In this document: one piece after another, positions 286 to 51,786 of the stretch
Position numbering within the stretch: position 1 is the first letter of the stretch
Layout: every line of letters starts with the position of its first letter
Program-made: the position numbers and the translations under genes
NCBI GenBank assembly: GCA_031292515.1
Contig: JARLGZ010000034.1
Coordinates: 1-64,000, forward strand
DNA: 64,000 bases
Direction: 5' to 3'
Origin: Puia sp.
Lineage (GTDB): Bacteria; Bacteroidota; Bacteroidia; Chitinophagales; Chitinophagaceae
Notes under the pieces: generated by a model
What the model saw: the letters and a program-made list of their open reading frames with translations, nothing else
Databases searched by the model: none
Told to the model about the DNA's origin: nothing

Positions 286-3200
286 TTAAAACTCACCACT
301 CACTACAATCACTCCCGCCCCATTATACGAATGATACTCTCCATTATACATGGCATCGGCGCTCACGGGCCCCATATGATAAACCCCCGGTGAGACGGCC
401 CGAACGGCATAGTAATAGGTCTGCCGGTTGCTGTGAGCATCCACAAACAGGTTGATCCGGTCATCCCGTACATCGATCGCCGTCGGCGAATCGTCATTCT
501 TGATCCAGTCCATGCCGGGAATGTCCTTGGTCCGCGGATTCTCGATTTCGAAACCGGCGGGCAGCAAGTCCGTGATCACCACGTTATCGATATTCGTACT
601 ATATGATTTTTCAAGGGTCAGCTCGATAATGACCAGTTCGTTCTGCCGGAAGCTATTTCCTATTATCGGCTTGCCATACCGGTCGAAGAAACGCTTGCGT
701 ATCTTCAGGTAGCTATCCTCCTCTTTGTAGACACCGGTAGCACTGATACCCTCCGCCTGCCAGAAATAGTAAAGCCGGCCATCGCCTTTCGAAACGATCT
801 CGGGATCCACACCCTTCAGCTGCGCCGCGCTGAGACGCAGATCGGCGCCGTTCATCGTAGCCACCGTCCGTCCCCCTACCCGTATATCTGCCGTCACACT
901 GGACCTGGCGGCGTCACGGGCGATTTTTCCAAGCGCGAGGAAACTAAAAGCCAGTTCCTGCGTACTATACCAATAACGCTGCTTCAGCTTGTCGGCGACA
1001 TGACGGGCCATAACGGGCACCTGGCTATTGCCCGGATCCACATCCACCAGCACATCGAGGGCGATCGACTCATCGCGGATATCGGAATAGAAACTACCTC
1101 CCGTCTGCGCCACGGATTCCTCACCCGCAAACTGGGAAGGCAGCAGCTGCCGGAAGCTGTTCTTGTCACCCGCCTGCGCAAAAGCCGCAGAAAGCAGGTA
1201 TTTCTCGTCCAGGCTCAGCAAACCCGGGTTGGCCTTATAGTAGTTCATCACGCTGGTATTGGGACGACCCGCCAGCGACAGGACATATAACCCATAGATC
1301 ACCTCTTTCGGCACGATCTTCCGGTTTTGATCCCGGTTGTAGAAATAGGTGATCGTCTCCCGGTTCTTCAACCGGTTGTTGACATATCCCAGCATCGTCG
1401 TGAGCAGCCCCTTGTCGACATCGAAGCCGGCCTTCTGTGCTTCCAGCAGGAAATGAGCGGAATAGATCGTTGCCCACCAGTTCTCCGTGTCCTCGTTATC
1501 CCACAGCGTCACGGCCCCGTTGTACAACTGACGCATCTTGATCTTCCGGATCGCCTCCAGCACATTGGTATTTGCACTGGCTGCCACTGCCCCATTCCGC
1601 CCTCCGCCATTGGAGACATTGATGACCCCATTACCCGCCCGGCCATTCAACAGCTCGGCCATATCTCCATAATAAAGTTGCGGAAAGGCAGCCGATACCG
1701 TCTGCTCGGTACAGCCATACGGATATTGCACCAGCAGATTGAGATACTTGGAAAGTTCTATCGCCGGCGAACGGCTCACCACGAGGTCATAAGCGATACT
1801 GGAAGGAATAAAATCGCTGGTATTCAGATGTAGCTGCTGGGTCCCGCCGGCAAGGGAGCCGCTGCCCGTGATCTTCTGCAACGAAGAAGGCGGCCTCACG
1901 CTGATCTCCGTTTCGTCGGTGAATTTCTCTCCCATGCTGCTCACTTCTACCGTCACCTTTCCGACACCGGTAGTAGCGGGCGCCACTACCTGGAACACGG
2001 CACGCCCTTCACTATTGGGGGAGAGGCTCACTGTCTGGCGATCCGCTCCCGCCGCCTGTAAGGGTCCGCTCAAACGCATCACGGCTTCCGCAGTTGCCGT
2101 CTTTGCAGTCGTATTAGTGAGGGTGACCGGTACCGTGATCGTATCCCGTGGGCTCAGGAACCGCGGGAGCGCCGTACTCAACACCAGCGGATCGGCCACC
2201 TTCATCGAAGTCTCGGCAGAACCAAACCGCTCGTTTTTATAGGAGACCGCCATCAGCCTGACCTCTCCCGAAAACTGGGGGATGTCGAATTCAAAAACCG
2301 CTTCGCCGCTGCCATTGGCCTGTACGATGCCACTCCAATAGGAGACGATTTTGAATCGTTTCGCCGGCATGGGATTCACCCGCTTCTTCATATCCGACTC
2401 GCCGTCGCCACCCGTACTACTCAACGAAGCCTTGACCTCGGGGAATAGCAGCGGATAAAGATCATAGCCATTGACCTCCAGCGCCCGGCGGGAATAGAAA
2501 TGTTCATAGGGGTCGGGTGTCCCGAAATCGGTGATCTGCAACACCCCGTTATCTACGGCGGCCAGCGTGACCAGGCTGTTCGGCGCCGCCTTGACACGGA
2601 CCTTTTGATGCGTATGGGACCGGACCGACTTTTCAGCCACGATCTCCAAAGGGATCCTCCGCTCCTTTTCTTCCACCTTCACACTCTCAAAACCATGCGC
2701 CACCGTAAGCGGTATATCGGACAACTCATGGGGCTTTATCAGCGTGGCGGTGATATATACATTGGGCAGATCATCGGCCGTGAGCTTCAGATCCACAGAA
2801 GCCGTCCGCTTGTCGACATTTACATATTGCCAGGAGACCACTTTGTCCGTCTCGAGAGTAACCAGCATCCGGCCGCTGAAAGGCGTCTTGAAAAGAGCCT
2901 TGACGCTCTCCCCGGTATAATAGGAGGACTTGTCCAGGTCAATGCTGATATTGCCTTCGTTATTGACCTCAAAGGAAGAGTTCTCCCCGCCCCAATACCC
3001 ATAGCTGTAAAAACGTTTGCTGACATAGCTATTGGCGCCGGGAATCGAGACCCGCAGTTCATAATTGCCGGGAGACCGCGGAACAAATGAATAGCGGGTA
3101 TTCTCTCCGCTCACAGAGACTACGCCCGTCGAGATGAGCTTGTCCTCCTGCTGGGATTGATACCGGAAATAGTTGCCGTTCTTGCTAAGCACCGTCCGGT

Positions 3201-5772
3201 ACTCGTGTTTGACCACCTGTATCTGCGCACGTGCGCCATTGAGCAGATTTTCGTTCTTATCCAGCGCAATAACCGGAAACTGGATAGCCTGGTTGAGCGC
3301 GTAATAAGAATAGCCATCGTCGGAGATCCCGAAAAACAATGACTGTGTATAGATATCGGCCGTCGCCTTACGGCTGACCGGCCGGCCGGTTTCATCGAAA
3401 ACCGTGGCGAAGAAGTTGGCCTGTAAAAGACCTATATTCTTATACAGCTCCGGGACCTCGTATTTCTCGACGGCATCCCCCTTTTCGTCCGTCTTGCCCT
3501 CCCGGACCACCTTGTCAAAGAAAGAATTCTGGTTAGCCAGCCCGAAATTATATTGTCTGTATTTCTTTGGATTGAAAGTCTTTTGTTTAACCTGGATCTC
3601 ACACTCATAGTTGCGGTTGGCAGCCGGCGGCCCAAAGAAATTTACCGCATTGATGCTGAGATGAGAAATGTCTCCTGCTTCGAGGAAGGGCTTGTCCAGC
3701 TTTGCCGTGACCTTGATCCGATCGGGCACAAACTCTTCGATACGGAAGGCCTGGGTCGTTAGCAGGACATCGTTCGCCGTATAGACTTCCAGCGAATAAC
3801 TGCCGGTGATAGCCGTCGTAGCGAGATCGATACTGCCTTCCAGCGACCCCTGCTCGTTGAGGCTCTTTCGGAATGTCTTCAGCTCCTTTCCATTCGGAAA
3901 CAGGAATTTCAGCTTCACGGGTATATCACCCGGGGACTTCCACTGCCGGTCACGCACGATCACGGAGAAATTGACCTTCTCTCCCGGCCGGTAGATATCC
4001 CGCTCCTCATACACATACGCATCCAGCCCGGTACTATTGCTTCGCCGTCCACCCACCTCGAAACGGGAAGTATTGACCCGCGTCGAACTAAAAGGAAGAT
4101 AGTTGAAGTCTTCCGCTGTCTTGGCAATGATCATGGCCGGGCGAAATCCGGAAAACTCCGTCCGGGAATAGGCGATCTCGGCAACCCCGTCCGCCGTCGT
4201 AGCGCCCATCCCGAGCACCTGGTTGTTGGCGCCATAGGCAATCATGTTGACACCTGACAAGGGAGCTGCATTCTTTATCGAATTGGCAAAGACCAGGATC
4301 TTCTCTTTGCCTTCTTTCGCGATCAGCCCGATATCGGAGAGCGATACAAAACGGCTGTCCCGTACCCAATAGTCCGTCGTCGACCGGATCATGACATGAT
4401 AGATGCCCTTAAAATCCGGCAGACGGTCCGCGATATTAAAGTTGAAAATACGGTTGTTACCCGATCCGGACAGCGGCAGCGAACGGGTCTCTACCTCCTG
4501 TTCATAGATCACATCCCCAAACTGGATATCCACACCGTTGTCCATTGCGACAGACCCCTCTCCATCTTCTTCCTCGCCGCCCCCGGTATTGGAAGAGGCC
4601 TGCGGACCCGTCGTCTCCTTTGGATCATACCCATAACGCTGGGCAGCCAGCAGGTTGTTCTCATAAATCCTGGAGACGACCACCTTGACCTTTGGCACAT
4701 TGACGATCTTTACCTCTATATTTTGTGCGCCCTTGCCCGAGAGGTAGACACCCTTGCTATTCGAAAAACCGATCGAGGGCTCCAGCTGACCAAACACGAC
4801 ATTGGACTTATATTCCTCGTGCAGCGTTCCACCGATACGCCCCCGCAAACCCTTGCCAATTGTAAGGGCATAACTCTTCTCCTGGTCGAAGTGATCGCTC
4901 CGGATCACAAATCCATTCTCGGCCGCCTCCACGGTGAATTTGACCGCCGGATCCAGGCTGATATACGAAGCCAGACCGGCGGCCACCACCTGCTGACTCG
5001 TGGAAACCCGGACAGTACCGCCGACTCCGTCATGCTCCGCGGAGACATCGTTGATGCTGAGTACAAAGGGCGAAGGAATACTGGTTTTAAATTCCGTCGC
5101 GACCTGCGTACCCTTTACCCCCCCTTCGGGAACCAGCCCTTTATCGATCGTAATCTTTGCGTCATAATCCTTATCTTCCATTTTCAGGTTCAGCAGCCGC
5201 ACGGAGATCTTGTCATCGGCCGAAAGACTCTGGATATTGAAGCTGGCAGCCTGCCCCCCTACTTCGATCTTTAGCCGGTCTTTAAGATTTGCGGGATTGA
5301 CCGGGTAATTGAACTGCAGATCGATCTGAGGAAGCGCCGTATTGCTGTTCTCATCCTGGAGCACCCAGGTCGTATTGCTGTTCTCCAGTTTGAGATCGGG
5401 AGTATGAAAGCTCAGTTCCCCCCCTTTACCGATACGCCCGAAACCACTGCCCCGGAGCAGCGATTTCGTCAGGACAGCCTTATAACTGGTGGCAGGCGCC
5501 AGGGGACCCGTGGGGGAGAATACAAGTTCATCCGGATGCTCCCAACGAAAACGACCCGGGATCCTCGGCTCAAAATCCACATAATCGGTGGAATCCCAGC
5601 GGTCGAGCAGCGAGTCTTTTACAAGGGCCTGCGAGAAGCGAAATATGAGGTTGCCCAGGGGAGGCACTTCCTCCCGGGCATTCGTATATTCGAGACTGAC
5701 TGTACTTCGGTTACAGGCAGACAAAAAAATAACAACCGAAAGGGTTGCCAGGAAACAGGGAGTATTACGCAT
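286..5772 (-). CDS. Alpha-2-macroglobulin family lipoprotein (YfhM type)
   Basis: The 1828-residue product is a bacterial alpha-2-macroglobulin, thought to trap proteases in the periplasm. I start it at the ATG at 5772 because that gives a lipoprotein signal (FLATLSVVIFLSAC, lipid Cys20); the longer frame begins at a TTG. An MG2-like segment (YRPGEKVNFSV) lies in the first half. The thioester site is YGCTEQ, with Cys1354 and Gln1357, so it looks able to form the bond. An acidic Gly-rich loop is coded near 4540-4610. The gene diverges from pbpC, the same partnership seen for yfhM-pbpC in Escherichia coli, which suggests a role in defending the envelope when the wall is breached. Family assignment is firm; the target proteases are unknown. 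Confidence 0.93.
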   Translation of the reverse strand: MRNTPCFLATLSVVIFLSACNRSTVSLEYTNAREEVPPLGNLIFRFSQALVKDSLLDRWDSTDYVDFEPRIPGRFRWEHPDELVFSPTGPLAPATSYKAVLTKSLLRGSGFGRIGKGGELSFHTPDLKLENSNTTWVLQDENSNTALPQIDLQFNYPVNPANLKDRLKIEVGGQAASFNIQSLSADDKISVRLLNLKMEDKDYDAKITIDKGLVPEGGVKGTQVATEFKTSIPSPFVLSINDVSAEHDGVGGTVRVSTSQQVVAAGLASYISLDPAVKFTVEAAENGFVIRSDHFDQEKSYALTIGKGLRGRIGGTLHEEYKSNVVFGQLEPSIGFSNSKGVYLSGKGAQNIEVKIVNVPKVKVVVSRIYENNLLAAQRYGYDPKETTGPQASSNTGGGEEEDGEGSVAMDNGVDIQFGDVIYEQEVETRSLPLSGSGNNRIFNFNIADRLPDFKGIYHVMIRSTTDYWVRDSRFVSLSDIGLIAKEGKEKILVFANSIKNAAPLSGVNMIAYGANNQVLGMGATTADGVAEIAYSRTEFSGFRPAMIIAKTAEDFNYLPFSSTRVNTSRFEVGGRRSNSTGLDAYVYEERDIYRPGEKVNFSVIVRDRQWKSPGDIPVKLKFLFPNGKELKTFRKSLNEQGSLEGSIDLATTAITGSYSLEVYTANDVLLTTQAFRIEEFVPDRIKVTAKLDKPFLEAGDISHLSINAVNFFGPPAANRNYECEIQVKQKTFNPKKYRQYNFGLANQNSFFDKVVREGKTDEKGDAVEKYEVPELYKNIGLLQANFFATVFDETGRPVSRKATADIYTQSLFFGISDDGYSYYALNQAIQFPVIALDKNENLLNGARAQIQVVKHEYRTVLSKNGNYFRYQSQQEDKLISTGVVSVSGENTRYSFVPRSPGNYELRVSIPGANSYVSKRFYSYGYWGGENSSFEVNNEGNISIDLDKSSYYTGESVKALFKTPFSGRMLVTLETDKVVSWQYVNVDKRTASVDLKLTADDLPNVYITATLIKPHELSDIPLTVAHGFESVKVEEKERRIPLEIVAEKSVRSHTHQKVRVKAAPNSLVTLAAVDNGVLQITDFGTPDPYEHFYSRRALEVNGYDLYPLLFPEVKASLSSTGGDGESDMKKRVNPMPAKRFKIVSYWSGIVQANGSGEAVFEFDIPQFSGEVRLMAVSYKNERFGSAETSMKVADPLVLSTALPRFLSPRDTITVPVTLTNTTAKTATAEAVMRLSGPLQAAGADRQTVSLSPNSEGRAVFQVVAPATTGVGKVTVEVSSMGEKFTDETEISVRPPSSLQKITGSGSLAGGTQQLHLNTSDFIPSSIAYDLVVSRSPAIELSKYLNLLVQYPYGCTEQTVSAAFPQLYYGDMAELLNGRAGNGVINVSNGGGRNGAVAASANTNVLEAIRKIKMRQLYNGAVTLWDNEDTENWWATIYSAHFLLEAQKAGFDVDKGLLTTMLGYVNNRLKNRETITYFYNRDQNRKIVPKEVIYGLYVLSLAGRPNTSVMNYYKANPGLLSLDEKYLLSAAFAQAGDKNSFRQLLPSQFAGEESVAQTGGSFYSDIRDESIALDVLVDVDPGNSQVPVMARHVADKLKQRYWYSTQELAFSFLALGKIARDAARSSVTADIRVGGRTVATMNGADLRLSAAQLKGVDPEIVSKGDGRLYYFWQAEGISATGVYKEEDSYLKIRKRFFDRYGKPIIGNSFRQNELVIIELTLEKSYSTNIDNVVITDLLPAGFEIENPRTKDIPGMDWIKNDDSPTAIDVRDDRINLFVDAHSNRQTYYYAVRAVSPGVYHMGPVSADAMYNGEYHSYNGAGVIVVSGEF

Positions 5773-5970
5773 ATGGAGGCCAGTTAAAGATTTGACGATC
5801 TTATTTTTGAAGACACTGTTAAAATACAAAAAGACTTGAAAAAAAGAAGGACTGTTCTCTTGCAGGGGAAAAAGAAAAACAGAAATTAGTGGAAGAAAGC
5901 TAAGGAGGGTGACCCGACGAGCCCATTTGAATAAAAGATTTGCATACGAAAATTACATTGCGGAACACCG

Positions 5971-5982
5971 TATTTGCAAATA
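5971..5982. promoter_or_regulatory. 12-bp palindrome before pbpC
   Basis: TATTTGCAAATA is a perfect 12-bp palindrome 32 bp before the pbpC ATG, in the divergent gap with the macroglobulin gene. A related half, TTTGCATA, lies at about 5938. It could be an operator for the divergent pair. There is no direct proof, and AT-rich DNA gives some palindromes by chance. Confidence 0.3.
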
Positions 5983-6014
5983 TCCTTCTGTAAGAAATTG
6001 TTAATTCGCGGCAT

Positions 6015-14089: not shown

Positions 14090-14420
14090 ATTCGTTGGCT
14101 GTCTTTTTATTGGTTGATCTTTCTCGCTCAATACTCCTTTTCTTGCTGATTACCCCCTGTTGCTCATCGTCCCATTCTTTGCGGATTACTCTTTTTGCTG
14201 GTTAGTCCTTTATTAGCTATTAGCGTGTCTGGTTATTAGCCTGTCTGGTCTTTTGCAGGTCAATTTTTTTCGATCTGCCAGGATCAGATTCATCTTCAAA
14301 TTTCCTGTTTTACCGCTTCATTCTGTTTTTTTCACCACTACATTATCCCTACAATCTGATAAAACTCGCCTGATTTTAAGTATTTTAGACCCTACATTGC
14401 CCTATCAGGGATTCCTACAA
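14090..14420. other. Divergent control region of the ThuA operon and its likely regulator
   Basis: This 331-bp gap separates the leftward ThuA-GH9 operon from the rightward sensor-regulator gene. It has no gene with family features. It holds a 16-bp tandem repeat at 14218-14249 and further ATTA-rich short repeats. Regulator binding sites for both directions would be expected here. Confidence 0.5.
14218..14249. repeat. Tandem 16-bp repeat in the divergent gap
   Basis: TATTAGCGTGTCTGGT is followed directly by TATTAGCCTGTCTGGT, a second copy with one change; a third TATTAG lies just upstream at 14211. Tandem direct repeats next to a LuxR-type regulator gene are candidate binding sites, but they could equally be another case of the micro-duplication seen across the window. 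Confidence 0.6.
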
Positions 14421-17354
14421 ATGAAAATACCCCGTCTTTCATATTTTTTATTGCTGCCGGTAACGTGGCTATCCGCGACGACCGGTCACAGTCAAAACAC
14501 CATCGGTTTGCCTGCGGTCACCAACTATAGCAGCCAGTCCTTTCATGCGGGTATACAAACCCGGCGGATCGACGAGGACAGGAATGGCGTCCTCTTCTTT
14601 GCCAACAGCGAAGGGCTGCTAACCTTTAACGGGAACTATTGGAATCTTTTCCCCCTCCCCAACAAGACCATCGTCAGGTCGGTGGCATCGGACTCTTCCG
14701 GAAAGATCTATGTCGGCGGCCAGGATGAATTGGGCTATTTTTACCCCGATGCGCGGGGAAGCCTGCAATATCACTCTCTGAGAAGCCTGGTGCCTTCTCA
14801 TGAAAAAGGGTTCGGCGAGCTGTGGGAAATCTCCTTCTACGGTGACGAAGTCTTTTTTCAATCCTCGGGAACCATTTTCCAGTTGAAGGACAACGCCATC
14901 AGGGCTTATGACGCGCCGCAGGAATGGCGATTGCTGACGGTGGCGGGTGGACGCCTGTTTGCAGAAGACAAAGTCCGGGGACTGCTGGTATTTAAAGAAG
15001 ACCTCTGGCAGCCGGTCTGCGGCGCCAAAAACACGGCCACACTCGGGATTGTCGCCATAACAGGATATGATGCGGATACCCTGCTGGTCGCCACCCAGCG
15101 AAACGGCCTCTTTCTCCTGCACGATTCCACGCTGACCCCGAAAATCACGGCGGCCGACGCCCTTCTCCCCAATGACCGGATCACCTGCCTGAGACAGATC
15201 GAACCGCAAAGCTGGATCATCGGCACCAGCACAAACGGTTGCTGCCTCCTGACTGACCACGGCGCCCGCGCGGAGCGACTATCCCGGACAGAGGGCCTCC
15301 AGAACAACAATATCCTGCAGACATTTATAAGCCGGGACGGCAATCTTTGGATCGGCGAAGCCAATGGGATAGACCGGGTAGACCGGAACACCGCCATCAG
15401 ACAGATCGTTCCCGACAGGAATAATCGCCAGGCCGGCTACGCGATCCGGGTATTTGACGGGCAACTCTTTATCGGCACATCCGCCGGCTTGTACCACGCG
15501 CCGCTGGACCCTTCCGAAAAAGACCTGAGTGCAAACCGGACACCCTTTACCGAAGTCCCTGGCACCAAAGGACAGGTGTGGGGCCTTTCGGAGGTGAACC
15601 ACCGTCTTTTCGCCGGTCATTTGGAGGGAGCCCTGCTCATCGATAAAAACCGGGCCGTCAGCCTCGCCGGTGGCCAGGGCTATTGGCTTTATGCGCCCCT
15701 CTCCTCTTTCTTCCCGTCCCGCCAGATCATCGCAGGCACCTACACCGGTCTCGAATTGCTAACGGACGAGGGAGAAACGATCCGTGATGCGGGAAAGGTC
15801 ACGGGACTGTTCGAATCGCTCCGTTTCCTGGTAGCGGAAGACGACCTGATATGGACCTCCCATCCCTACAGGGGTGTTTTTAAAGCACAGCTTTCGGCGG
15901 ACCGGAGATCCATCGTCAGCAGCCGGCTATATACGGAAAAAGACGGCCTGCCTTCCACCTTGAATAACTATGTGTACTCCGTTAAGAACAGGGTGGCGAT
16001 CGCGACGGAGAAAGGCATCTATGAATACGACGCCGCAACCGACCGGTTCCGGCCTTCTTCTTTTTTCCAGCCTTTCTTTCACGACCGTCCCGTCCGGTAT
16101 TTGACAGAAGACGATCAGGGAAACATCTGGTTTATCAGCAACCACCAGGTAGGAGTCCTCGATTTCCAACGGCCTGCTGCTGAAACGGCTTATTCAGTGA
16201 TCCTTTTTCCTGAGCTTGACGGCTCAGCGGTAAAAGGCTACGAGTCCATCTATCCCTATAACAGACAGAATATTTTTATAGGATCCAATACAGGGGTCCT
16301 TCATCTCGATTACTCCCGGTATACCCGGAAGATACCGGCTCCTACGGTCTTGCTGAGCATGGTCAAAGCCACCGGCGACGGAGACAGCCTCCTCTTCGGA
16401 GGATACCTTCCCGGCAATGCCCGCCTGACCAAAACAGATCCCGCAGCCCGGGTCGTCCTGCCCAACAGTTGGAGCTCATTCCATTTCGAATACGCATCTC
16501 CACAGATCAATGGACAAGGCGCCCGCCCCGCTTTTAGCTACCGGCTGGAGGGCTTTGACAAGGACTGGTCGGACTGGTCGGAGAAAACGGAAAAAGATTA
16601 TACCAACCTGCCCTATGGCAATTACACCTTCCGGGTGAAAGTCCGAAACAACGCAGGCAACGTTTCCATGCCCGCCGGCTACGGCTTCGTCATCCGCCCT
16701 GCCTGGTACCAGACAAACGGCGCCCGGGTTTGTTACGGGCTCCTGATCGCCGCATGCTTCTACCTGCTGCGGTCAAGACGCGAAAAGAAATTCGCCCGGC
16801 AACGCAGCCAATACAAAGAGGAACAGGAGCGTCTGAGATACCTGCAGCAACTGGAACTGGACCGCAATGAAAAGGAGATCATCGCCCTCCAAAACGACAA
16901 GATGGCGACTACCATCAATTTCAAGAACAAGGAATTGGCAATGGCCACCATGCACCTGGTCGAAAGAGGAAAGATCCTGGCAAAAATCCGCGAAGAACTG
17001 GTCCAACGGCTCAAAAATATTCAAGCCCCGGCCGTGAGCGAAGAGTTCAAACCGATCCTGCGAATGCTCGACGAGGTTGAAAAAAGCGATGCGGACTGGG
17101 ACCGGTTCTCAAACCACTTCGACGAAGTACACAACAATTTTCTGTCCACCCTGAAAAAGAAATTCCCCGTGCTCAGCGCCACGGACCTCAAATTATGCGC
17201 CTACCTCCGCATGAACCTGAGCTCAAAAGAGATCGCCCAACTGATGAATATTTCCGTAAAAGGAGTCGAGGTCAGCCGCTACCGGCTTCGTAAAAAACTG
17301 GCATTGCCCACAGAAGTGAACCTCTTCGATTTCCTGATCAAGGAGACCGCATAA
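14421..17354 (+). CDS. Membrane sensor-regulator: beta-propeller, Y_Y_Y, LuxR-type HTH
   Basis: A 977-residue one-piece sensor. I start it at the ATG at 14421, giving a signal peptide (SYFLLLPVTWLSATTGHSQ). A long periplasmic two-component-regulator-type propeller follows (repeats such as DGNLWIGEANGI), then a Y_Y_Y domain at about 710-755 (NLPYGNYTFRVKV), one membrane helix at about 765-782, a cytosolic coiled coil, and a LuxR-like helix-turn-helix in the last 60 residues (LSSKEIAQLMNISVKGVEVS). There is no histidine kinase or receiver domain, so signal and DNA binding would be joined in one protein. Its divergent placement makes it the likely regulator of the ThuA/GH9 operon. Confidence 0.87.
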   Translation: MKIPRLSYFLLLPVTWLSATTGHSQNTIGLPAVTNYSSQSFHAGIQTRRIDEDRNGVLFFANSEGLLTFNGNYWNLFPLPNKTIVRSVASDSSGKIYVGGQDELGYFYPDARGSLQYHSLRSLVPSHEKGFGELWEISFYGDEVFFQSSGTIFQLKDNAIRAYDAPQEWRLLTVAGGRLFAEDKVRGLLVFKEDLWQPVCGAKNTATLGIVAITGYDADTLLVATQRNGLFLLHDSTLTPKITAADALLPNDRITCLRQIEPQSWIIGTSTNGCCLLTDHGARAERLSRTEGLQNNNILQTFISRDGNLWIGEANGIDRVDRNTAIRQIVPDRNNRQAGYAIRVFDGQLFIGTSAGLYHAPLDPSEKDLSANRTPFTEVPGTKGQVWGLSEVNHRLFAGHLEGALLIDKNRAVSLAGGQGYWLYAPLSSFFPSRQIIAGTYTGLELLTDEGETIRDAGKVTGLFESLRFLVAEDDLIWTSHPYRGVFKAQLSADRRSIVSSRLYTEKDGLPSTLNNYVYSVKNRVAIATEKGIYEYDAATDRFRPSSFFQPFFHDRPVRYLTEDDQGNIWFISNHQVGVLDFQRPAAETAYSVILFPELDGSAVKGYESIYPYNRQNIFIGSNTGVLHLDYSRYTRKIPAPTVLLSMVKATGDGDSLLFGGYLPGNARLTKTDPAARVVLPNSWSSFHFEYASPQINGQGARPAFSYRLEGFDKDWSDWSEKTEKDYTNLPYGNYTFRVKVRNNAGNVSMPAGYGFVIRPAWYQTNGARVCYGLLIAACFYLLRSRREKKFARQRSQYKEEQERLRYLQQLELDRNEKEIIALQNDKMATTINFKNKELAMATMHLVERGKILAKIREELVQRLKNIQAPAVSEEFKPILRMLDEVEKSDADWDRFSNHFDEVHNNFLSTLKKKFPVLSATDLKLCAYLRMNLSSKEIAQLMNISVKGVEVSRYRLRKKLALPTEVNLFDFLIKETA

Positions 17355-44931: not shown

Positions 44932-47900
44932 ATGATCTTCAAAAAGATCGACTCCCAATCCAGGACCAAGACCTCAGCCCTGACCAAATCTACCGCCAGG
45001 CTCACCGTCATCACTGCGCTCGCCGCCTCCGCCCTCTGCGCGACCGCCCAGCAGAAACCGGCAAGCCATCAACCGACCGACGACTATGCATCCGCATGGA
45101 AGCCGATCGACTCGCTGATCAACAAAAAGGGGCTCCCACAATCGGCCCTCACCGAAATAGACAAACTCTGCAACCGCGCAAAAAAAGAACACAACGATCC
45201 GCAACTTATCAAAACCCTCCTCTATCGCATGAACCTGCAGGAGAGCCGGGAGGAAGATGCCACCGTAAAAAATGCCGCCGCCCTGGAAAAAGAGATCGAC
45301 TCCGCCCGCGAACCCGCCAGGTCCATCCTGCTCAGCATCCTGGCAGAAACCTATTGGAATTATTTTCAGGCCAACCGGTATAAACTATACAACAGATCGG
45401 CTACCGGCGACAATACTACCGTCGACAACACCAGCAGGATCAATATCGACAACACCAGCAGGATCAATATCGGCGACGCCAACGACAGGAATAAAAAGAC
45501 AGACATGCAAACCTGGGACCGGGACCAATTCCACAAAAGAATCGGCGAATTGTACCTGGCCTCATTAAAAAACGAACGGATACTGGAGCAGACGGATCTA
45601 TCGGCGTTCGATGCGATTCTCATAAAAGGCAATTCCCGCAGGCTCCGCCCTACCCTCTATGACCTGTTAGGGAACCGGGCATTGGAATATTTCAAGACCG
45701 ACGAAACCGACATCAATAAACCGGCCTATGTATTCGAACTGGATGATCCGCTCGCCTTCTCGGATGCAACTAGTTTTGCAGGTTATCCCTTTGCAAACGC
45801 AGATACCCTCTCTTTCAAATTACAAGCCTTAAAATTATATCAGCGACTAATTCGCTTCCACCTGCCCGATGCAAGACCAGATGCATTACTGGACGTAAAT
45901 ATCGACAGGTTGAGATTCGTCTGCGCCAATGCGGTCATGGAAGATAAGGATAGCCTGTATATGGCTGCGCTTACCCGCATCACGGACCGCTATGGCAATG
46001 AAAAGCAAGCGCTGACTGCCTGGAGCATCAAGGCAGAGCAATATGCCGATCGGGCAGCAGCATATGCGTCTTCGAAAGATCCGGCTGATCAGTATGGATA
46101 TGTCAAAGCCAAAGCGATCTGCGACCAGGTGCTGGCCAACTCCGCAGAAAAGGATAGCAGCGAGGGCAGGAACAATTGCCAGGAACTATTGAAACGTATC
46201 CTGCAAAAAGAGCTGTCCATGAATATGGAAAAAGTCAACCTGCCCGGTCAGCCCATGCGCAACCTCGTAAGCTGGCGCAATATCCCGCAAATATACTTTC
46301 GGCTCCTGCGAGTAGATCATACCCTGCAGGAAAGCCTGGGAACCAATTCTTATTCCGATGAGTACTGGCAGAAACTTTTGCAGTTGCCTGTCCTGAAGCT
46401 CCTTTCACAGGCCCTGCCGGAAACGGGAGATTATCAGCAACACCGGACGGAGATCAGGATCGATGCCCTGCCGGTGGGAGACTATGCATTGGTGGTGAGT
46501 AGCAGCAAGGACTTCAGCCTGGCCGGCCCGATACTGGCCGTGCAGTATTTCTCCGTATCCGGTATTGCCTATGTCAATACGGACCGGGATTATTTCGTGG
46601 TGAACAGGGAAAGCGGCCAGCCGCTGGCGGGTGCTTCGGTACAGATCTGGAACCGGACCTATGAGTATAAGACGAATAAGTTCATCCTGTCAAAGGCCGG
46701 GACCTATACTGCAGATGAACACGGCCATTTCCTGATGAAGAAAAAAGCCCTCAGCGACGGCAGCATACAACAATGGCTGGAGATCAGCACGACGGGAGAC
46801 CACCTGTTCCCCGACGGACAATCGACAGCCTACTATCTCCGGTATCGGGGAAACGAAGAAGAGGATCCCTCGGACAAGCCCGCTTATGAAAGAAAGTACC
46901 GCAGGACCTTCTTCTTTACCGACCGCGCCATCTACCGGCCGGGGCAGACCCTGTATTTCAAAGGGATTGTCGTGACACGGGACAAGGACAGCCGGCAGTC
47001 AAAAGTGCTATCCTCCTTCCAGACAAGGGTGAGGCTGCTGAATGCCAATGGACAACCGGTAGATTCCCTCGATATGGTCACGAACGAATTCGGGTCCTAT
47101 CATGGCAAATTCACCCTTCCCGGGAACGGCTTGAATGGAGAGTTCAGTATTGCCGACGACTCGGCAGATGGAAGGCAGTCCTTCTCAGTTGAAGAATATA
47201 AGCGTCCGAAATTCTATCTAGACTATGATAAACTAAAAGGCAGCTACCGCGTGGGCGATACGATCAAGGTAATAGGAAATGCTAAGGCCTATGCCGGCAA
47301 CCTGATCGACGGAGCGAAAGTAAAATACCGCGTAGTGCGGCAGGCCAGGTTCCCCTACACCTGGCTATACCGGCGTTGGGGCAGACCTGCTGTCAGTGAG
47401 CAGGAGATCGCGCATGGTGAGACGACTACCGCTCCGGATGGTAAATTCATCGTCTCCTTTGCTGCAATCCCTGACCGGAAGGTCAGTAAAGACCTGGACC
47501 CGGTCTTCGGGTACAACATTTCCGCTGACGTAACCGATATCAATGGGGAAACGAGGAGCGCTCAGACGACCGTATCGGCAGGATATAAAGCCATCCAACT
47601 GGCCATTAACCTGCCCGAAGGGGGACAGCACATGCCGGCCGACAGTCTGAAGCAGCTGATAGTCAGAACAACCAACCTATCGGGGGAGCCCGAGCCTGCA
47701 GCCATTCATATGACGATCTATTCCCTGCAGTGCCCGGACCGGATGATCCGGAAACGTTATTGGGAAATGCCGGATCAATTCGTAATCGACAAAAAAGACT
47801 ACCTGGAAGCCTTCCCGCATGACGAATACAAGGACGAGACCCAGGTAGGGACCTGGCAACATACAGGCAAAGTAGCCGAGCGGCTGGATTCCAGCGGCGT

Positions 47901-50900
47901 CGTCCCCATCTTCAGGGGAGAATTCCCAACCGGGATGCGCACGGGCGGAAAGGTCAACGACCAACGGCTGCTGCCGGGATGGTATGCGATCGAAGTAACG
48001 ACGACGGATAAATATGGCGCCGAAATAAGGGACATCAAATACGTGGAATTATATGAGGGTAAGACGGGTCAACCTCTCTACCCTCAATATAACTGGGGCG
48101 TGGAGGATAATACGATGGCGGAGCCGGGTAGCAATGCCAGTGTCGATATCGGGTCCTCAGCCGGGAATGTATTCGTCATCCGCAAGAGGGTTGACAAGAT
48201 AGCCGGCAAACCGATGCACCCTTCGATAGGGGGAGGGGCCGACGATGAGGATGCGGCGGGAGCGTTCAATTTCCTTCCCCTGAACAAGGAGCGGAAGACA
48301 ACGACCCTGCCGGTTACCGGGAATGACCGGGGTGGTTTCGGAGTCCTGGATGTCTTTGTAAAAGACAATCGCGTCTATACGAATGTCCATACTATCCTGG
48401 TGCCCTGGTCCAATAAAGAGTTAAAGATCAATTATACCAGCTTCCGGGATAAGACCCGGCCCGGCGGCGAAGAGCGTTGGTCGGTCAATATCAGCGGATA
48501 TAAGGGCGACCGCGTAACAGCCGAAGTCCTGGCCTCCATGTATGATGCTTCGCTGGATCAGTTCAAAATGCAATATTGGAATAAACCGGATCTGTATCCC
48601 CGATACTACCCGGAGAGTGGCTGGATGAGCAATGATAATTTCTCGATGGTCAATTCCTGGCAGAAATACTTTGCCGGTCCCGACAATGTGACCTATGTCA
48701 AACAATATGATCAGATCATGACAGAACCCGTTCCGGTGATGATGAATCATCTGCTTTCCGGACGTGTGAGCCGGCCGGGCGCTCCTGAAGCAATGAATGC
48801 GGTCATGTATAAAACTTCCGTACCTGCACCGTCGATGGCCCTTGCCGGCAGAGCAGCAGGGGTTACCATCAGAGGCGCCGCCAGCATGGATGCGGGCAAC
48901 CAACCGCTGTATATCATAGATGGCGTCGTCCAAACTGCGGTCGAAGCAAAAAGTCTCGACCCCGGGGAGATCGAAGCTGTCCGGGTACTGAAAGATGCAG
49001 CAGCGAGCAGTCTCTATGGAGCCGCTGGAGCTAACGGCGTAGTGATGATTACCACCAAAAAGGGGGGACAAGCGACTAAACAGGAAGTGCAGGTGAGAAA
49101 GAATTTTAATGAGACGGCATTCTTCTTCCCCGATCTCCAAACGGATGCGGCCGGAGATGTCAGCTTCTCCTTTACCATGCCGGAGGCACTGACGAACTGG
49201 CGACTCCTGACCCTGGCGCATACACGCGACCTGGCCTTTGGCTTTAGCGAAAAGACCACCGTCACCCAAAAACAACTCATGGTCCAGCCGAACGCTCCGC
49301 GGTTTCTCCGGGAAGGCGACCGGATCGAACTCAGCGCCAGGATCGTCAACCTCAGCGATTCCGAACTGACGGGACAAGTGGAACTGCAACTCACCGACGC
49401 TACCACCAACCAGTCCGTGGACGGATGGTTGAGTAACCGGCAGGCGAACCAATACTTTACCGTAGCCGCCGGACAAAGCACCGCCGTCCGTTTCCCCATG
49501 GAAATACCCTACCAGTTTAACAGGCCCGTCACTTATCGAATTGTCGCTCACGCGAAGTCTTCCTGCGAAGGAGAGTTTGGCGATGGCGAGGAAGACATGC
49601 TGCCCGTCGTCAGCAACCGCGTACTGGTCACTGAGAGCCTGCCCCTTACTATCCGTGGAAACGGCACCCGCGACTTCCGTTTTGAAGGACTCCTGCGGAG
49701 CGGATCCAGCGAGACCCTCAACCACCATGCCCTGACCGTCGAATTTAGCAGCAACCCCGCCTGGTACGCCGTGCAAGCCCTTCCCTATCTGACCGAATAC
49801 CCCTACGAATGTGCCGAACAGACCTTCGAACGATACTTTGCGAACGCACTGGCCGCCTCAATTGTGAAAAACGCACCCCGCATCCGGGAGATCTTCCCGA
49901 CCTGGAAGACGGTGGATACCAGCGCCCTGCTCAGCAATCTCGAAAAGAACCCCGAACTGAAATCGGTACTCCTCGAAGAGACACCCTGGGTGCTCGAAGC
50001 AAAAACCGAATCGCAGCAAAAGAAGAACATAGCCCTCCTCTTCGACATGACAAGAATGACGCGCGAGCTCGGCGCCGCCCTCAACAAACTGCAGGATATG
50101 CAGGCTCCGAACGGAGGCTTTGTCTGGTTCAAGGGCGGACCCGATGACCGCTACATCACCCAAACCATCCTCTCGGGGATCGGCCACCTGAAGAAACTGA
50201 AAGCCCTGCCATCCGAAGATGCCCAAAAAATAGACAGGATCGTCAAAGCAGGGCTCGACTATCTCGACAAAAAGATGATAGCCGACTATGAATCAGCCAA
50301 AAAACTGGCAGGAGGGGCAATATCGGCAGCCCACCCCTCCGCAAACCGCCCCGGCACAACTCACCCCGGTGGCCAGGCGGCAGCATCTCCCGGAAAATCT
50401 CCCACAGCTCGTCGGGGAATCCGCCCGATAGAGCCTGACCTCGGCAGCCTCCGGATACAATACCTCTACCTGCGAAGCCTGTTTAGCGACTACGACCTGC
50501 CCGGGACCGTATTCCCTGCCATGAATTTTTATCGCAACCTGGCCCGGCAACACTGGCTCGAACAAAATCGCTATATGCAGGGCATGATCGCCCTGGCCCT
50601 CTTCCGCACCGGCGACATCCAAACGGCAAAGGACATCCTGAAATCCCTCAAACAGAACGCACTGACCAACGAAGAGACCGGTATGTACTGGAAGAATATG
50701 GCAGGCGGCTATTACTGGTACCAGGCCCCCATCGAAACGCAGTCCCTGCTCATCGAAGCCTTCCGCGAGATCACCCGCGACACCGCCATCGACCAGGGCT
50801 TGAAGACCTGGCTGCTGAGACAGAAACAAACCCAAAACTGGTCCACGACAAAGGCCACCGCGGATGCCTGCTATGCGCTGCTCCTCGGCGGCAGCGATTG

Positions 50901-51786
50901 GCTGGCCGCTAACCCAAAAGTCACCATCCGGCTGGGGAACGAGACGATCGTTTCCGACCCCGGCTCCCCCTCCCCGCCTACATCCCTGGAATCAGAAAAT
51001 ACGTCAAATTCGTCCGTCAACCCATCAAACCCGGCAGCACCCATACCCACCCCCGAAGCAGGCACAGGCTATTTCAAGAGGGTTATCCCCGGCAACACCG
51101 TGAAACCGGAGATGGGCAATATCTCGGTGACCCTCTCTTCCTCAACACCCCGATCGGCCAATATCGCCTGGGGCGCTGTCTATTGGCAATATTTTGAAAA
51201 TGCCGACAAAGTCTCAGCCTCCGGATCCTCAACACCCGAAACAGGAACATCCGGAACAGGAACACCCGAAACAGGAACATCCGGAAGATCAACGCGCGGA
51301 ACGGGAACATCCGGTGAAACTCCCGGAGAACCTAAACCGGAGGAAACCGCCTCCACGCCGCTGAAACTGACAAAGAAACTGTTCATCACCCGAAACACAG
51401 ACCGCGGGCCGGCGCTCGAACCCCTGGAGGAAAATGCCGAAATGCATATAGGCGATAAAATAACGGTGCGCGTCGAATTACATGCCGACCGGGAGATGGA
51501 GTATGTCCACATGAAAGATATGCGGGCATCCTGCATGGAACCCGTAAATGTGCTGAGCGCATACAAATGGCAGGACGGGCTGGGCTATTATGAGACGACG
51601 AAAGATGCAAGCACGAATTTCTTTTTTGACAGGATACCCCGGGGCGTCTATGTCTTCGAATATCCTATGTTCGTATCCCAGGCAGGGAATTTCAGCAACG
51701 GCATCACGACCATCCAATGCATGTACGCACCGGAATTTGGCGCACACAGCGAAGGGATCCGCGTGAGTGTAGCATCCGAACCATAA
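44932..51786 (+). CDS. Giant alpha-2-macroglobulin with TonB plug-like insert
   Basis: A 2284-residue exported macroglobulin (signal VITALAASALCATAQQ). An unassigned helical N-terminal region is followed by an MG2-like segment (DRAIYRPGQTLYFKGI), then further MG domains. At residues about 1306-1378 lies a SusC-like plug motif (NQPLYIIDGVV, EAVRVLKDAAASSLYG, ANGVVMITTKKGG). The A2M domain follows directly (NFNETAFFFPDLQTD), so the insert occupies the bait-region position. The thioester region is YECAEQ (Cys1627, Gln1630), apparently intact. Several low-complexity inserts are present at about residues 160-187, 1795-1830, 2008-2045 and 2097-2140, two with exact or near-exact tandem DNA repeats (24 bp x2, 30 bp x3). 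Unlike the first macroglobulin it has no lipobox, so it may be free in the periplasm or surface-linked. Confidence 0.92.
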   Translation: MIFKKIDSQSRTKTSALTKSTARLTVITALAASALCATAQQKPASHQPTDDYASAWKPIDSLINKKGLPQSALTEIDKLCNRAKKEHNDPQLIKTLLYRMNLQESREEDATVKNAAALEKEIDSAREPARSILLSILAETYWNYFQANRYKLYNRSATGDNTTVDNTSRINIDNTSRINIGDANDRNKKTDMQTWDRDQFHKRIGELYLASLKNERILEQTDLSAFDAILIKGNSRRLRPTLYDLLGNRALEYFKTDETDINKPAYVFELDDPLAFSDATSFAGYPFANADTLSFKLQALKLYQRLIRFHLPDARPDALLDVNIDRLRFVCANAVMEDKDSLYMAALTRITDRYGNEKQALTAWSIKAEQYADRAAAYASSKDPADQYGYVKAKAICDQVLANSAEKDSSEGRNNCQELLKRILQKELSMNMEKVNLPGQPMRNLVSWRNIPQIYFRLLRVDHTLQESLGTNSYSDEYWQKLLQLPVLKLLSQALPETGDYQQHRTEIRIDALPVGDYALVVSSSKDFSLAGPILAVQYFSVSGIAYVNTDRDYFVVNRESGQPLAGASVQIWNRTYEYKTNKFILSKAGTYTADEHGHFLMKKKALSDGSIQQWLEISTTGDHLFPDGQSTAYYLRYRGNEEEDPSDKPAYERKYRRTFFFTDRAIYRPGQTLYFKGIVVTRDKDSRQSKVLSSFQTRVRLLNANGQPVDSLDMVTNEFGSYHGKFTLPGNGLNGEFSIADDSADGRQSFSVEEYKRPKFYLDYDKLKGSYRVGDTIKVIGNAKAYAGNLIDGAKVKYRVVRQARFPYTWLYRRWGRPAVSEQEIAHGETTTAPDGKFIVSFAAIPDRKVSKDLDPVFGYNISADVTDINGETRSAQTTVSAGYKAIQLAINLPEGGQHMPADSLKQLIVRTTNLSGEPEPAAIHMTIYSLQCPDRMIRKRYWEMPDQFVIDKKDYLEAFPHDEYKDETQVGTWQHTGKVAERLDSSGVVPIFRGEFPTGMRTGGKVNDQRLLPGWYAIEVTTTDKYGAEIRDIKYVELYEGKTGQPLYPQYNWGVEDNTMAEPGSNASVDIGSSAGNVFVIRKRVDKIAGKPMHPSIGGGADDEDAAGAFNFLPLNKERKTTTLPVTGNDRGGFGVLDVFVKDNRVYTNVHTILVPWSNKELKINYTSFRDKTRPGGEERWSVNISGYKGDRVTAEVLASMYDASLDQFKMQYWNKPDLYPRYYPESGWMSNDNFSMVNSWQKYFAGPDNVTYVKQYDQIMTEPVPVMMNHLLSGRVSRPGAPEAMNAVMYKTSVPAPSMALAGRAAGVTIRGAASMDAGNQPLYIIDGVVQTAVEAKSLDPGEIEAVRVLKDAAASSLYGAAGANGVVMITTKKGGQATKQEVQVRKNFNETAFFFPDLQTDAAGDVSFSFTMPEALTNWRLLTLAHTRDLAFGFSEKTTVTQKQLMVQPNAPRFLREGDRIELSARIVNLSDSELTGQVELQLTDATTNQSVDGWLSNRQANQYFTVAAGQSTAVRFPMEIPYQFNRPVTYRIVAHAKSSCEGEFGDGEEDMLPVVSNRVLVTESLPLTIRGNGTRDFRFEGLLRSGSSETLNHHALTVEFSSNPAWYAVQALPYLTEYPYECAEQTFERYFANALAASIVKNAPRIREIFPTWKTVDTSALLSNLEKNPELKSVLLEETPWVLEAKTESQQKKNIALLFDMTRMTRELGAALNKLQDMQAPNGGFVWFKGGPDDRYITQTILSGIGHLKKLKALPSEDAQKIDRIVKAGLDYLDKKMIADYESAKKLAGGAISAAHPSANRPGTTHPGGQAAASPGKSPTARRGIRPIEPDLGSLRIQYLYLRSLFSDYDLPGTVFPAMNFYRNLARQHWLEQNRYMQGMIALALFRTGDIQTAKDILKSLKQNALTNEETGMYWKNMAGGYYWYQAPIETQSLLIEAFREITRDTAIDQGLKTWLLRQKQTQNWSTTKATADACYALLLGGSDWLAANPKVTIRLGNETIVSDPGSPSPPTSLESENTSNSSVNPSNPAAPIPTPEAGTGYFKRVIPGNTVKPEMGNISVTLSSSTPRSANIAWGAVYWQYFENADKVSASGSSTPETGTSGTGTPETGTSGRSTRGTGTSGETPGEPKPEETASTPLKLTKKLFITRNTDRGPALEPLEENAEMHIGDKITVRVELHADREMEYVHMKDMRASCMEPVNVLSAYKWQDGLGYYETTKDASTNFFFDRIPRGVYVFEYPMFVSQAGNFSNGITTIQCMYAPEFGAHSEGIRVSVASEP
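45424..45471 (+). repeat. Exact 24-bp duplication in the macroglobulin gene
   Basis: GACAACACCAGCAGGATCAATATC is found twice without a single change, coding two copies of D-N-T-S-R-I-N-I. The lack of any substitution marks a recent in-frame duplication. Confidence 0.9.
48850..49065 (+). other. TonB-receptor plug-like module inside the macroglobulin
   Basis: The encoded segment VTIRGAASMDAGNQPLYIID, then EIEAVRVLKDAAASSLYG and ANGVVMITTKKG, follows the plug consensus of SusC-type receptors (PLYVIDG...IEVLKDAsAtaiYGsrgANGVilITTKkG) in order and spacing. No TonB box or barrel follows; the protein returns directly to the A2M domain. The call rests on motif order seen by eye. Confidence 0.82.
51231..51320 (+). 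repeat. Three 30-bp in-frame repeats near the macroglobulin C-terminus
   Basis: Units 51231-51260, 51261-51290 and 51291-51320 share AACACCCGAAACAGGAACAT followed by CCGG, with changes mostly in the third. They encode S-T-P-E-T-G-T-S-G-type decapeptides that form a flexible linker. Confidence 0.85.

Follow-up and report, generated by a model that had tools for sequence, protein, structure and literature searches.

The window (the whole stretch of DNA analysed, 64,000 nucleotides of a Puia sp. contig) carries two genes for alpha-2-macroglobulins (A2M), the subject of this analysis (hereafter the window macroglobulin) and an ECAM-like protein that was used as a control (Table 1). The window macroglobulin possesses the MG2, A2M and bMG10 domains in the order found in bacterial alpha-2-macroglobulins (Pfam), and has sucD and an FAD oxidoreductase as neighbours, without pbpC. 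This protein is matched at E ≤ 1 neither by Pfam TED_complement nor by the bait-domain model PF07703, the latter of which does match the other macroglobulin of the window. At positions 14253-17354 of the window we also observed a protein of the two-component-regulator propeller and Y_Y_Y type that weakly matches the BT3442 family.

Table 1. Features of the window, with nucleotide positions and the evidence for each.
Feature	Residues	Position	Strand	Evidence
ECAM-like macroglobulin (control without segments of the kind described below)		286..5829	-	Pfam bMG3, bMG5, bMG6, A2M_BRD; CTEQ in translation
pbpC		6015-8546		beside ECAM-like macroglobulin
Alpha-2-macroglobulin (A2M) gene	2284 aa	44932..51786	+	ORF; Pfam MG2, A2M, bMG10
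Signal-peptide-like N-terminal stretch of the window macroglobulin				by eye
MG2 domain	659-749	46906..47178	+	Pfam PF01835, E 3.4e-17
Hypervariable bait, with one conserved flank on either side	1233-1380	48628..49071	+	orthologue alignment, extraction
LAGRAAGV, resembling the SusC LQGRVAGV segment		48841..48864	+	translation against SusC consensus
SusC plug-like segment	1305-1378	48844..49065	+	own-genome SusC HMM, Pfam Plug
SusC/RagA 31-residue signature	1346-1376	48967..49059	+	TIGR04057, 53.3 bits (cut-off 46.2)
A2M domain	1395-1485	49114..49386	+	Pfam PF00207, E 8e-22
Thioester motif CAEQ	1627-1630	49810..49821	+	read in translation
Bacterial MG10 domain (bMG10)	2144-2268	51361..51735	+	Pfam PF17973, E 8.5e-31

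A plug-like segment at the position of the bait

A sequence-only reading of this DNA had placed a SusC plug-like sequence at the position of the bait, directly ahead of the A2M domain, and the profile searches confirmed this: Pfam Plug matches residues 1303-1370 (E 1.2e-9, 39.1 bits, cut-off 23.9), TIGR04057 lies within the same segment, and the A2M domain follows from residue 1395. The thioester motif is present in the translation as the reading had it (first residue 1627), and the words picked out by it start at residues 1325 (PLYIIDG), 1350 (VRVLKDAAASSLYG), 1367 (ANGVVMITTKKGG) and 1391 (NFNETAFFFPDL). Since the Plug profile is covered at positions 40-107 of 107 only, the window copy holds just the C-terminal part of a plug. 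TIGR04056 reached 97.6 bits at its positions 135-220 of 981 (far under the whole-protein cut-off of 368.25), and an HMM trained on the N-terminal regions of 23 SusC proteins from the same genome (no bait being used) gave 84.4 bits for the whole window bait and 81.2 bits for the plug-like stretch, at HMM positions 159-251 only. The best matches among PDB sequences were to homologues of RagA and SusC, with E values down to 5.5e-15. No barrel, Ton box or carboxypeptidase-D-like domain was found in the window macroglobulin by Pfam, NCBIfam and the SusC HMM, and a word search of its bait likewise found no Ton-box word.

Within the own genome the SusC signature stands above cut-off at 44 of the 53 listed places, namely in 43 receptor-sized frames (1010-1352 aa) and in the window macroglobulin. 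A DNA search of this genome with the plug yielded 15 matches outside its own gene (best E 0.496), three of which lie at SusC signature places (C195, C238 and C145; 20-82 bases, 68-95% identical), so that the DNA likeness to the susC genes of the same genome is a faint trace only.

The reading had also proposed a plug-like fold, and of this only a part was borne out: AlphaFold2 modelled the C-terminal plug part, and returned the greater part of the bait as disordered (pLDDT below 50). For residues 1100-1500 (alignment of 40 rows) the mean pLDDT was 66, with most of model residues 140-244 (protein 1239-1343) under 50, the strand and helices of 1350-1367 at about 72 and the last strand at about 54; with the plug-bearing rows only (4 rows) the mean was 40 and the plug part reached 58-64. 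In a Foldseek search with this low-confidence 4-row model, the first 11 of 22 rows were TonB-dependent receptors (10 SusC/RagA and one Cir), and the model superposed on SusC plugs, in the best row at 2.0 A over 55 columns with E 0.013 (no row having an E value below 0.001). That the window copy holds a complete plug domain was accordingly rejected (C-terminal part only, bait mostly predicted disordered); the segment may form part of a plug, and the models do not predict a firm domain.

Hypervariability of the bait among orthologues

Whole-protein matches were obtained in 53 of 58 genomes (own genome included), a part of which apparently concern only SusC genes, and many orthologues align up to approximately residue 1262 and again from approximately residue 1385. 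We compiled 110 loci in total, with 80 from named genomes (the best 80 of at least 574 confirmed stretches; the names include Chitinophaga, Niastella, Niabella, Dyadobacter, Aquimarina and Saprospiraceae). The bait was cut out between fixed anchors in 105 of these (leaving out L011, L024, L098, L102 and L147), and after dropping four identical sequences a set of 101 baits was used. Identities of bait and flanks were compared in 16 pairs chosen by eye, the two sharpest of which (L117/L120 and L132/L133) are both 88% identical upstream and 94% downstream of the bait, and only 17% and 12% identical, respectively, within it. Other pairs are less changed (L113/L116: 96% and 98%, bait 67%; L114/L119: 95% and 97%, bait 66%). 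Frame shifts within the bait were observed in two of the 110 loci, L011 (reverse strand, approximately 5000-5290; near a run of nine A) and L147 (approximately 5552-6016; at a Ton-box-like segment); phase variation, decay or a sequencing error may lie behind them.

SusC segments in the baits

At 10 bits or more the SusC HMM matched 23 of the 101 baits. The controls at this level gave no match among 5050 shuffled and 101 reversed baits, one among 1511 tiles cut from other parts of the same proteins, and four among 1192 tiles from neighbouring frames. The segments are of several kinds (the Ton box of LNEVVVVGYGTQKK type, the LQGRVAGV segment, the IRIRG word and the plug), and in 6 of 10 baits with two separate SusC segments (at least 2 bits each) their SusC order is broken. 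Ton-box-like words (EVVVxG) stand in a number of baits; in a SusC homologue the Ton box is 82-DEVVVTG-88 and flexible, as stated in the available part of the source (PMC7782687). When all 101 baits were scanned against Pfam (24736 families), Plug alone matched more than one bait (6 of 101), while 22 further families matched one bait each (best E 0.0034). In the NCBIfam scan five families matched more than one bait, all of them of TonB-dependent receptors (TIGR04056 at the top, with 15 of 101 baits at E ≤ 0.1). The baits of L099 and L110 contain words like LKKLPGVQVDKDG, known from other TonB-dependent receptors, which are a further possible source.

TonB, OmpA-type, GldN and LptD segments

An all-against-all comparison of the baits revealed recurring words other than those of SusC. 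A model of the TonB linker (built from 22 TonB sequences) reached at least 15 bits in 5 of 101 baits (L017, L097, L107, L129 and L144) and in none of the four control sets, and short letter-for-letter TonB matches occur in further baits, e.g. in L027 (VVQDVQLEDV) and L132 (TTNQEGAKDLG). At 8 bits or more the same model picked up 3 of 101 reversed baits (probably through proline runs) as compared to 8 of 101 real ones, and therefore our claims on TonB use only matches of at least 15 bits or letter for letter; the union count at 8 bits (below) still includes weak TonB rows, e.g. L137.

Whole-genome searches were carried out with the pieces of the baits that had remained unexplained, the rows being assigned by query stretch and frame length (with some of the genes read). 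Eight baits against six genomes (E ≤ 10) returned 21 rows, i.e. 6 A2M, 7 OmpA-type, 4 GldN, 3 LptD and 1 other (a 413-aa frame, E 0.3). The SusC-masked pieces of 24 baits against 21 genomes (E ≤ 1; own genome among them for 20 of the 24) returned 67, i.e. 23 A2M, 18 GldN, 19 TonB, 5 LptD and 2 others (a 414-aa frame at E 0.13, by our reading an FAD enzyme, and a 62-aa frame with stops at E 0.39). Out of the 44 non-A2M rows in this set, the 42 that belong to GldN, TonB or LptD come from 4 of the 24 baits (L002, L008, L012 and L017), each meeting orthologues in many genomes, and should not be counted as 42 separate events. In a further search, pieces of 28 baits against 21 genomes (the own genome being among them for 21 of the 28) returned 25 A2M rows and five others, four of which stem from three baits (OmpA-type in L120, two GldN in L088, LptD in L127), the fifth being a stray 79-aa frame. 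Apart from four weak stray rows, the non-SusC sources recovered by the whole-genome searches are thus TonB, GldN, LptD and OmpA-type proteins, with the rows of both masked sets deriving from 7 baits only.

The identity of the sources was verified by a family scan of one example each (GldN, TIGR03523, 178.7 bits against a cut-off of 85.9; LptD, PF19838, 466 bits; OmpA, PF00691, 37.1 bits), and further source genes were identified by reading. As the GldN, LptD and OmpA models were built from genes found with the baits, their scores are not independent, whereas the whole-genome searches are. The same spots of GldN, LptD, OmpA and TonB are matched by different baits, and the GldN, LptD and OmpA segments presumably face the periplasm, judging from those families. 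Twelve other proteins of the window, taken as sources in single-sequence models (a weaker control), gave no score of 8 bits or more with the real baits. The bait of the ECAM-like macroglobulin gave negative scores with four source models and no match with the fifth (LptD), in keeping with the earlier statement that the first macroglobulin of the window has no plug insert.

The genome of the window has only 5 TonB_C matches. In one of its regions (G000:C114:34494-36505, L157-L159) we observed three tandem TonB C-terminal domains, two of them in long-linker proteins. TSP3-like repeats were recognized by eye in the OmpA-type proteins L197-L202 and L211, of which L198 (the only one scanned) also resembles the type IX secretion system (T9SS) protein PorG (39.1 bits, cut-off 130); through this resemblance several of the sources may be linked to the T9SS.

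Overall counts and occurrence across the phylum

With a threshold of 8 bits, one or more of the five sources are recognized in 41 of the 101 baits (nine of them through the GldN, LptD or OmpA models alone) and none in the other 60, as compared to matches in 1 of 2480 shuffled sequences and 10 of 1511 same-protein tiles (by our reading beta-sandwich or signal-peptide stretches); this detection favours conserved sources. At 5 bits or more the matches are 55 of 101 baits, 17 of 23 baits of a second set, 16 of 2480 shuffles and 52 of 1511 tiles. Chance likeness was rejected on the strength of the shuffled, reversed, same-protein and neighbouring-frame controls.

The second set was obtained by drawing 148 genomes from the phylum (own genome included), 26 of which hold the macroglobulin at E ≤ 1e-30; together with four stretches from the 58-genome search this gave 30 stretches, with 24 readable baits (not L217, L232, L233, L237, L238 and L241; four without the upstream anchor). 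One of these repeats L144, leaving 23 in use (20 from the draw and 3 from the 58-genome search). At least one source was matched at 8 bits or more by 13 of the 23, all from the phylum draw, and none of the 23 reached 5 bits with the OmpA, GldN or LptD models. At E ≤ 0.1 CarbopepD_reg_2 was present in 10 of 23 and Plug in 3 of 23, nearly the whole SusC N-terminal region was found in L220 (177.6 bits) and L229 (149.2 bits), and L219 combines a carboxypeptidase-D-like stretch with a piece of TonB linker (17.9 bits). In class-level relatives (L220, L229, L215, L226, L230 and L231) we observed a carboxypeptidase-D-like stretch and a Ton box in the bait, and in two of them the plug as well (SusC N-terminal extension).

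Turnover, lineage fit and codon use

For 100 proteins a tree was computed from 606 alignment columns outside the bait (short search; L126 left out as too short). Of its 97 inner branches 33 are weak, which can inflate the counts of change. On this tree the SusC state (34 rows at 5 bits or more) involves at least 25 changes, and the TonB state (13 rows at 5 bits or more, with five proline-rich or doubtful rows set aside) at least 13. The minimum is 5 for OmpA (5 rows, at least 8 bits), 3 for GldN (3 rows, at least 8 bits) and 3 for LptD (3 rows, at least 3.5 bits).

In all 6 baits examined, the GldN or LptD version of the bait's own lineage fits better: L002 and L008 score 83-125 with GldN of the genus of the window versus 19-25 with the other type, L088 scores 77-80 with that other type versus 23-29 with the one from the window's genus, and with LptD of their own type L012 and L009 score 46-87 and L127 scores 77 (wrong type 19-37). 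Within a lineage the copy of the own genome is not always the best (L002: 114 with its own, 125 with that of a relative).

Codons were compared in 10 hand-chosen ungapped pairs (8 with the bait's own genome; Met and Trp excluded), and at 53 of 130 identical residues the same codon is used, versus 55.6 expected from codon usage; a separate, partly misaligned comparison gave 56 of 128, versus 50.7 expected. Codon agreement at about the level of chance lends no support to recent DNA copying, and a recent copy of the plug from a susC gene was rejected on this ground and on that of the best DNA match (E 0.496). At the amino-acid level the identity to LptD of the own genome is 14/15 in L012 and 15/16 in L127. 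Such likeness would either have been kept by selection or have arisen through convergence.

Discussion

These comparisons show that the window protein belongs to a group of thioester-motif macroglobulins of Bacteroidota in which the bait often carries short stretches similar to parts of the cell's own envelope machines that face the periplasm, or in some relatives of the same class nearly the entire N-terminal region of SusC; the set of segments (SusC, TonB, OmpA-type, GldN, LptD) differs between close relatives. For these segments we infer, at roughly even odds, a role as integrated decoys, by which proteases that attack the envelope machines would spring the trap. A protease entering the periplasm would cut the transporters or secretion machines of the cell, would meet the matching sequence in the bait (in the window copy, the SusC plug) and cut there as well, and the cut would lead through the conformational change known for macroglobulins to binding of the protease by the thioester. 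Selection would keep the amino acids of the decoy similar to those of its target, and the turnover would result from an arms race. The available part of a study on ECAM describes its bait as largely disordered, its cutting as resulting in a conformational change, opening of the trap and exposure of the thioester (PMC4498604). Periplasmic predators are a candidate source of the protease, as exemplified by a predator's prey-lytic protease (PMC12546842, a paper in which the word macroglobulin does not occur). The wider proposal, a periplasmic immune system of integrated decoys in which a patchwork bait would track, lineage by lineage, the cell's own protease-sensitive loops (SusC, TonB, OmpA-type, GldN, LptD), is put forward more tentatively, with chances somewhat short of even. 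We know of no protease that cuts the SusC, TonB, GldN, LptD or OmpA targets.

Three alternatives, each unlikely and in our estimation about equally so, deserve to be weighed against the decoy interpretation. According to the first, the bait accepts almost any unfolded, export-compatible peptide, and pieces of abundant envelope genes would be recruited by chance recombination without selection for similarity. This improbable course of events is consistent with the hypervariable loop and with the 44 places of the own genome that hold the SusC signature above cut-off, but TonB segments recur in the baits in spite of the few TonB_C matches there, the repeated use of the same spots of GldN, LptD, OmpA and TonB by different baits speaks against it, and the near-complete identity to LptD with codon agreement close to chance suggests a constraint on the protein sequence.

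The second regards the SusC pieces as remains of a fusion, by which the bait of an ancestor acquired the N-terminal region of SusC in full, with its carboxypeptidase-D-like domain, Ton box and plug. Given the nearly complete region in L220 and L229, an old and later broken-up fusion is possible for the SusC part, and the CarbopepD_reg_2 matches in the second set agree with it; as an account of the baits in general it is nonetheless doubtful, for the SusC order is broken in the majority of two-segment baits, the TonB, GldN, LptD and OmpA pieces are left unexplained, and the SusC-like state needs its 25 or more changes for 34 rows (a third of the inner branches being weak).

As the third we consider self-monitoring, in which the cell's own periplasmic proteases would cut the bait when the Ton, T9SS or LPS-export machines are damaged, and the macroglobulin would restrain quality-control proteases or report envelope stress. 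The same anatomy fits this idea, the identified segments being from self proteins; by itself it leaves the rapid turnover between some sisters unexplained, and we hold it to be improbable.

Triggering or tethering of the trap by a TonB or receptor partner that binds or pulls a plug or Ton-box-like bait, which the sequence-only reading had raised, agrees with the EVVVxG words but is very unlikely, and was rejected as a general function, since the window bait has no Ton-box word and the TonB-linker, GldN, LptD and OmpA-linker pieces of sister baits share no known TonB partner. The suggestion that the protein has lost its bait logic did not hold up well either: the thioester motif and the A2M domain are retained and the loop is variable and mostly unstructured in the models, which makes such a loss unlikely.

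Should the wider proposal be correct, the bait would amount to a readable list of the sites cut by invading proteases. Under the decoy interpretation bacterial macroglobulins, few of whose natural target proteases are known, would have a specificity that could be read from sequence. This interpretation predicts that proteases which reach the Bacteroidota periplasm from predators, rivals or hosts have cleavage sites in the Ton box or plug, in the TonB linker, in the OmpA-type linker and in one named loop each of GldN and LptD. Human A2M has been turned into selective inhibitors through engineering of its bait region (PMC8267569, available part).

In the open-access literature searched we found no prior account of plug-bearing or self-segment baits in bacterial macroglobulins (mention elsewhere being possible), in agreement with the sequence-only reading. 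Plug-containing macroglobulins are, we assume, already annotated in databases. With the type I alpha-2-macroglobulins (E. coli ECAM/YfhM and Salmonella SaA2M) the window protein shares MG2, A2M, bMG10 and the CxEQ thioester motif, and also the bait directly ahead of the A2M domain (PMC4498604, available part); it differs from them by a hypervariable bait with self-envelope segments, the lack of a PF07703 match and neighbours other than pbpC. With the SusC/RagA receptors it has in common the C-terminal part of the plug and the 31-residue signature, and unlike them it has no barrel, Ton box or carboxypeptidase-D-like domain. In human alpha-2-macroglobulin and complement C3 an insert (bait region or anaphylatoxin) likewise lies ahead of the thioester part, and to our knowledge neither insert copies a protease target of the host. 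A further analogy would be with the integrated decoys of plant NLRs, in which a piece of an immune protein resembles the attacker's target in the host (PMC4246468, PMC10195085 and PMC4759852, in their available parts). Compared with these, the protein described here would be a bacterial protease trap with putative decoys of peptide size and direct capture in place of signalling and, if the interpretation is true, would represent in bacteria what integrated decoys are in plant immunity.
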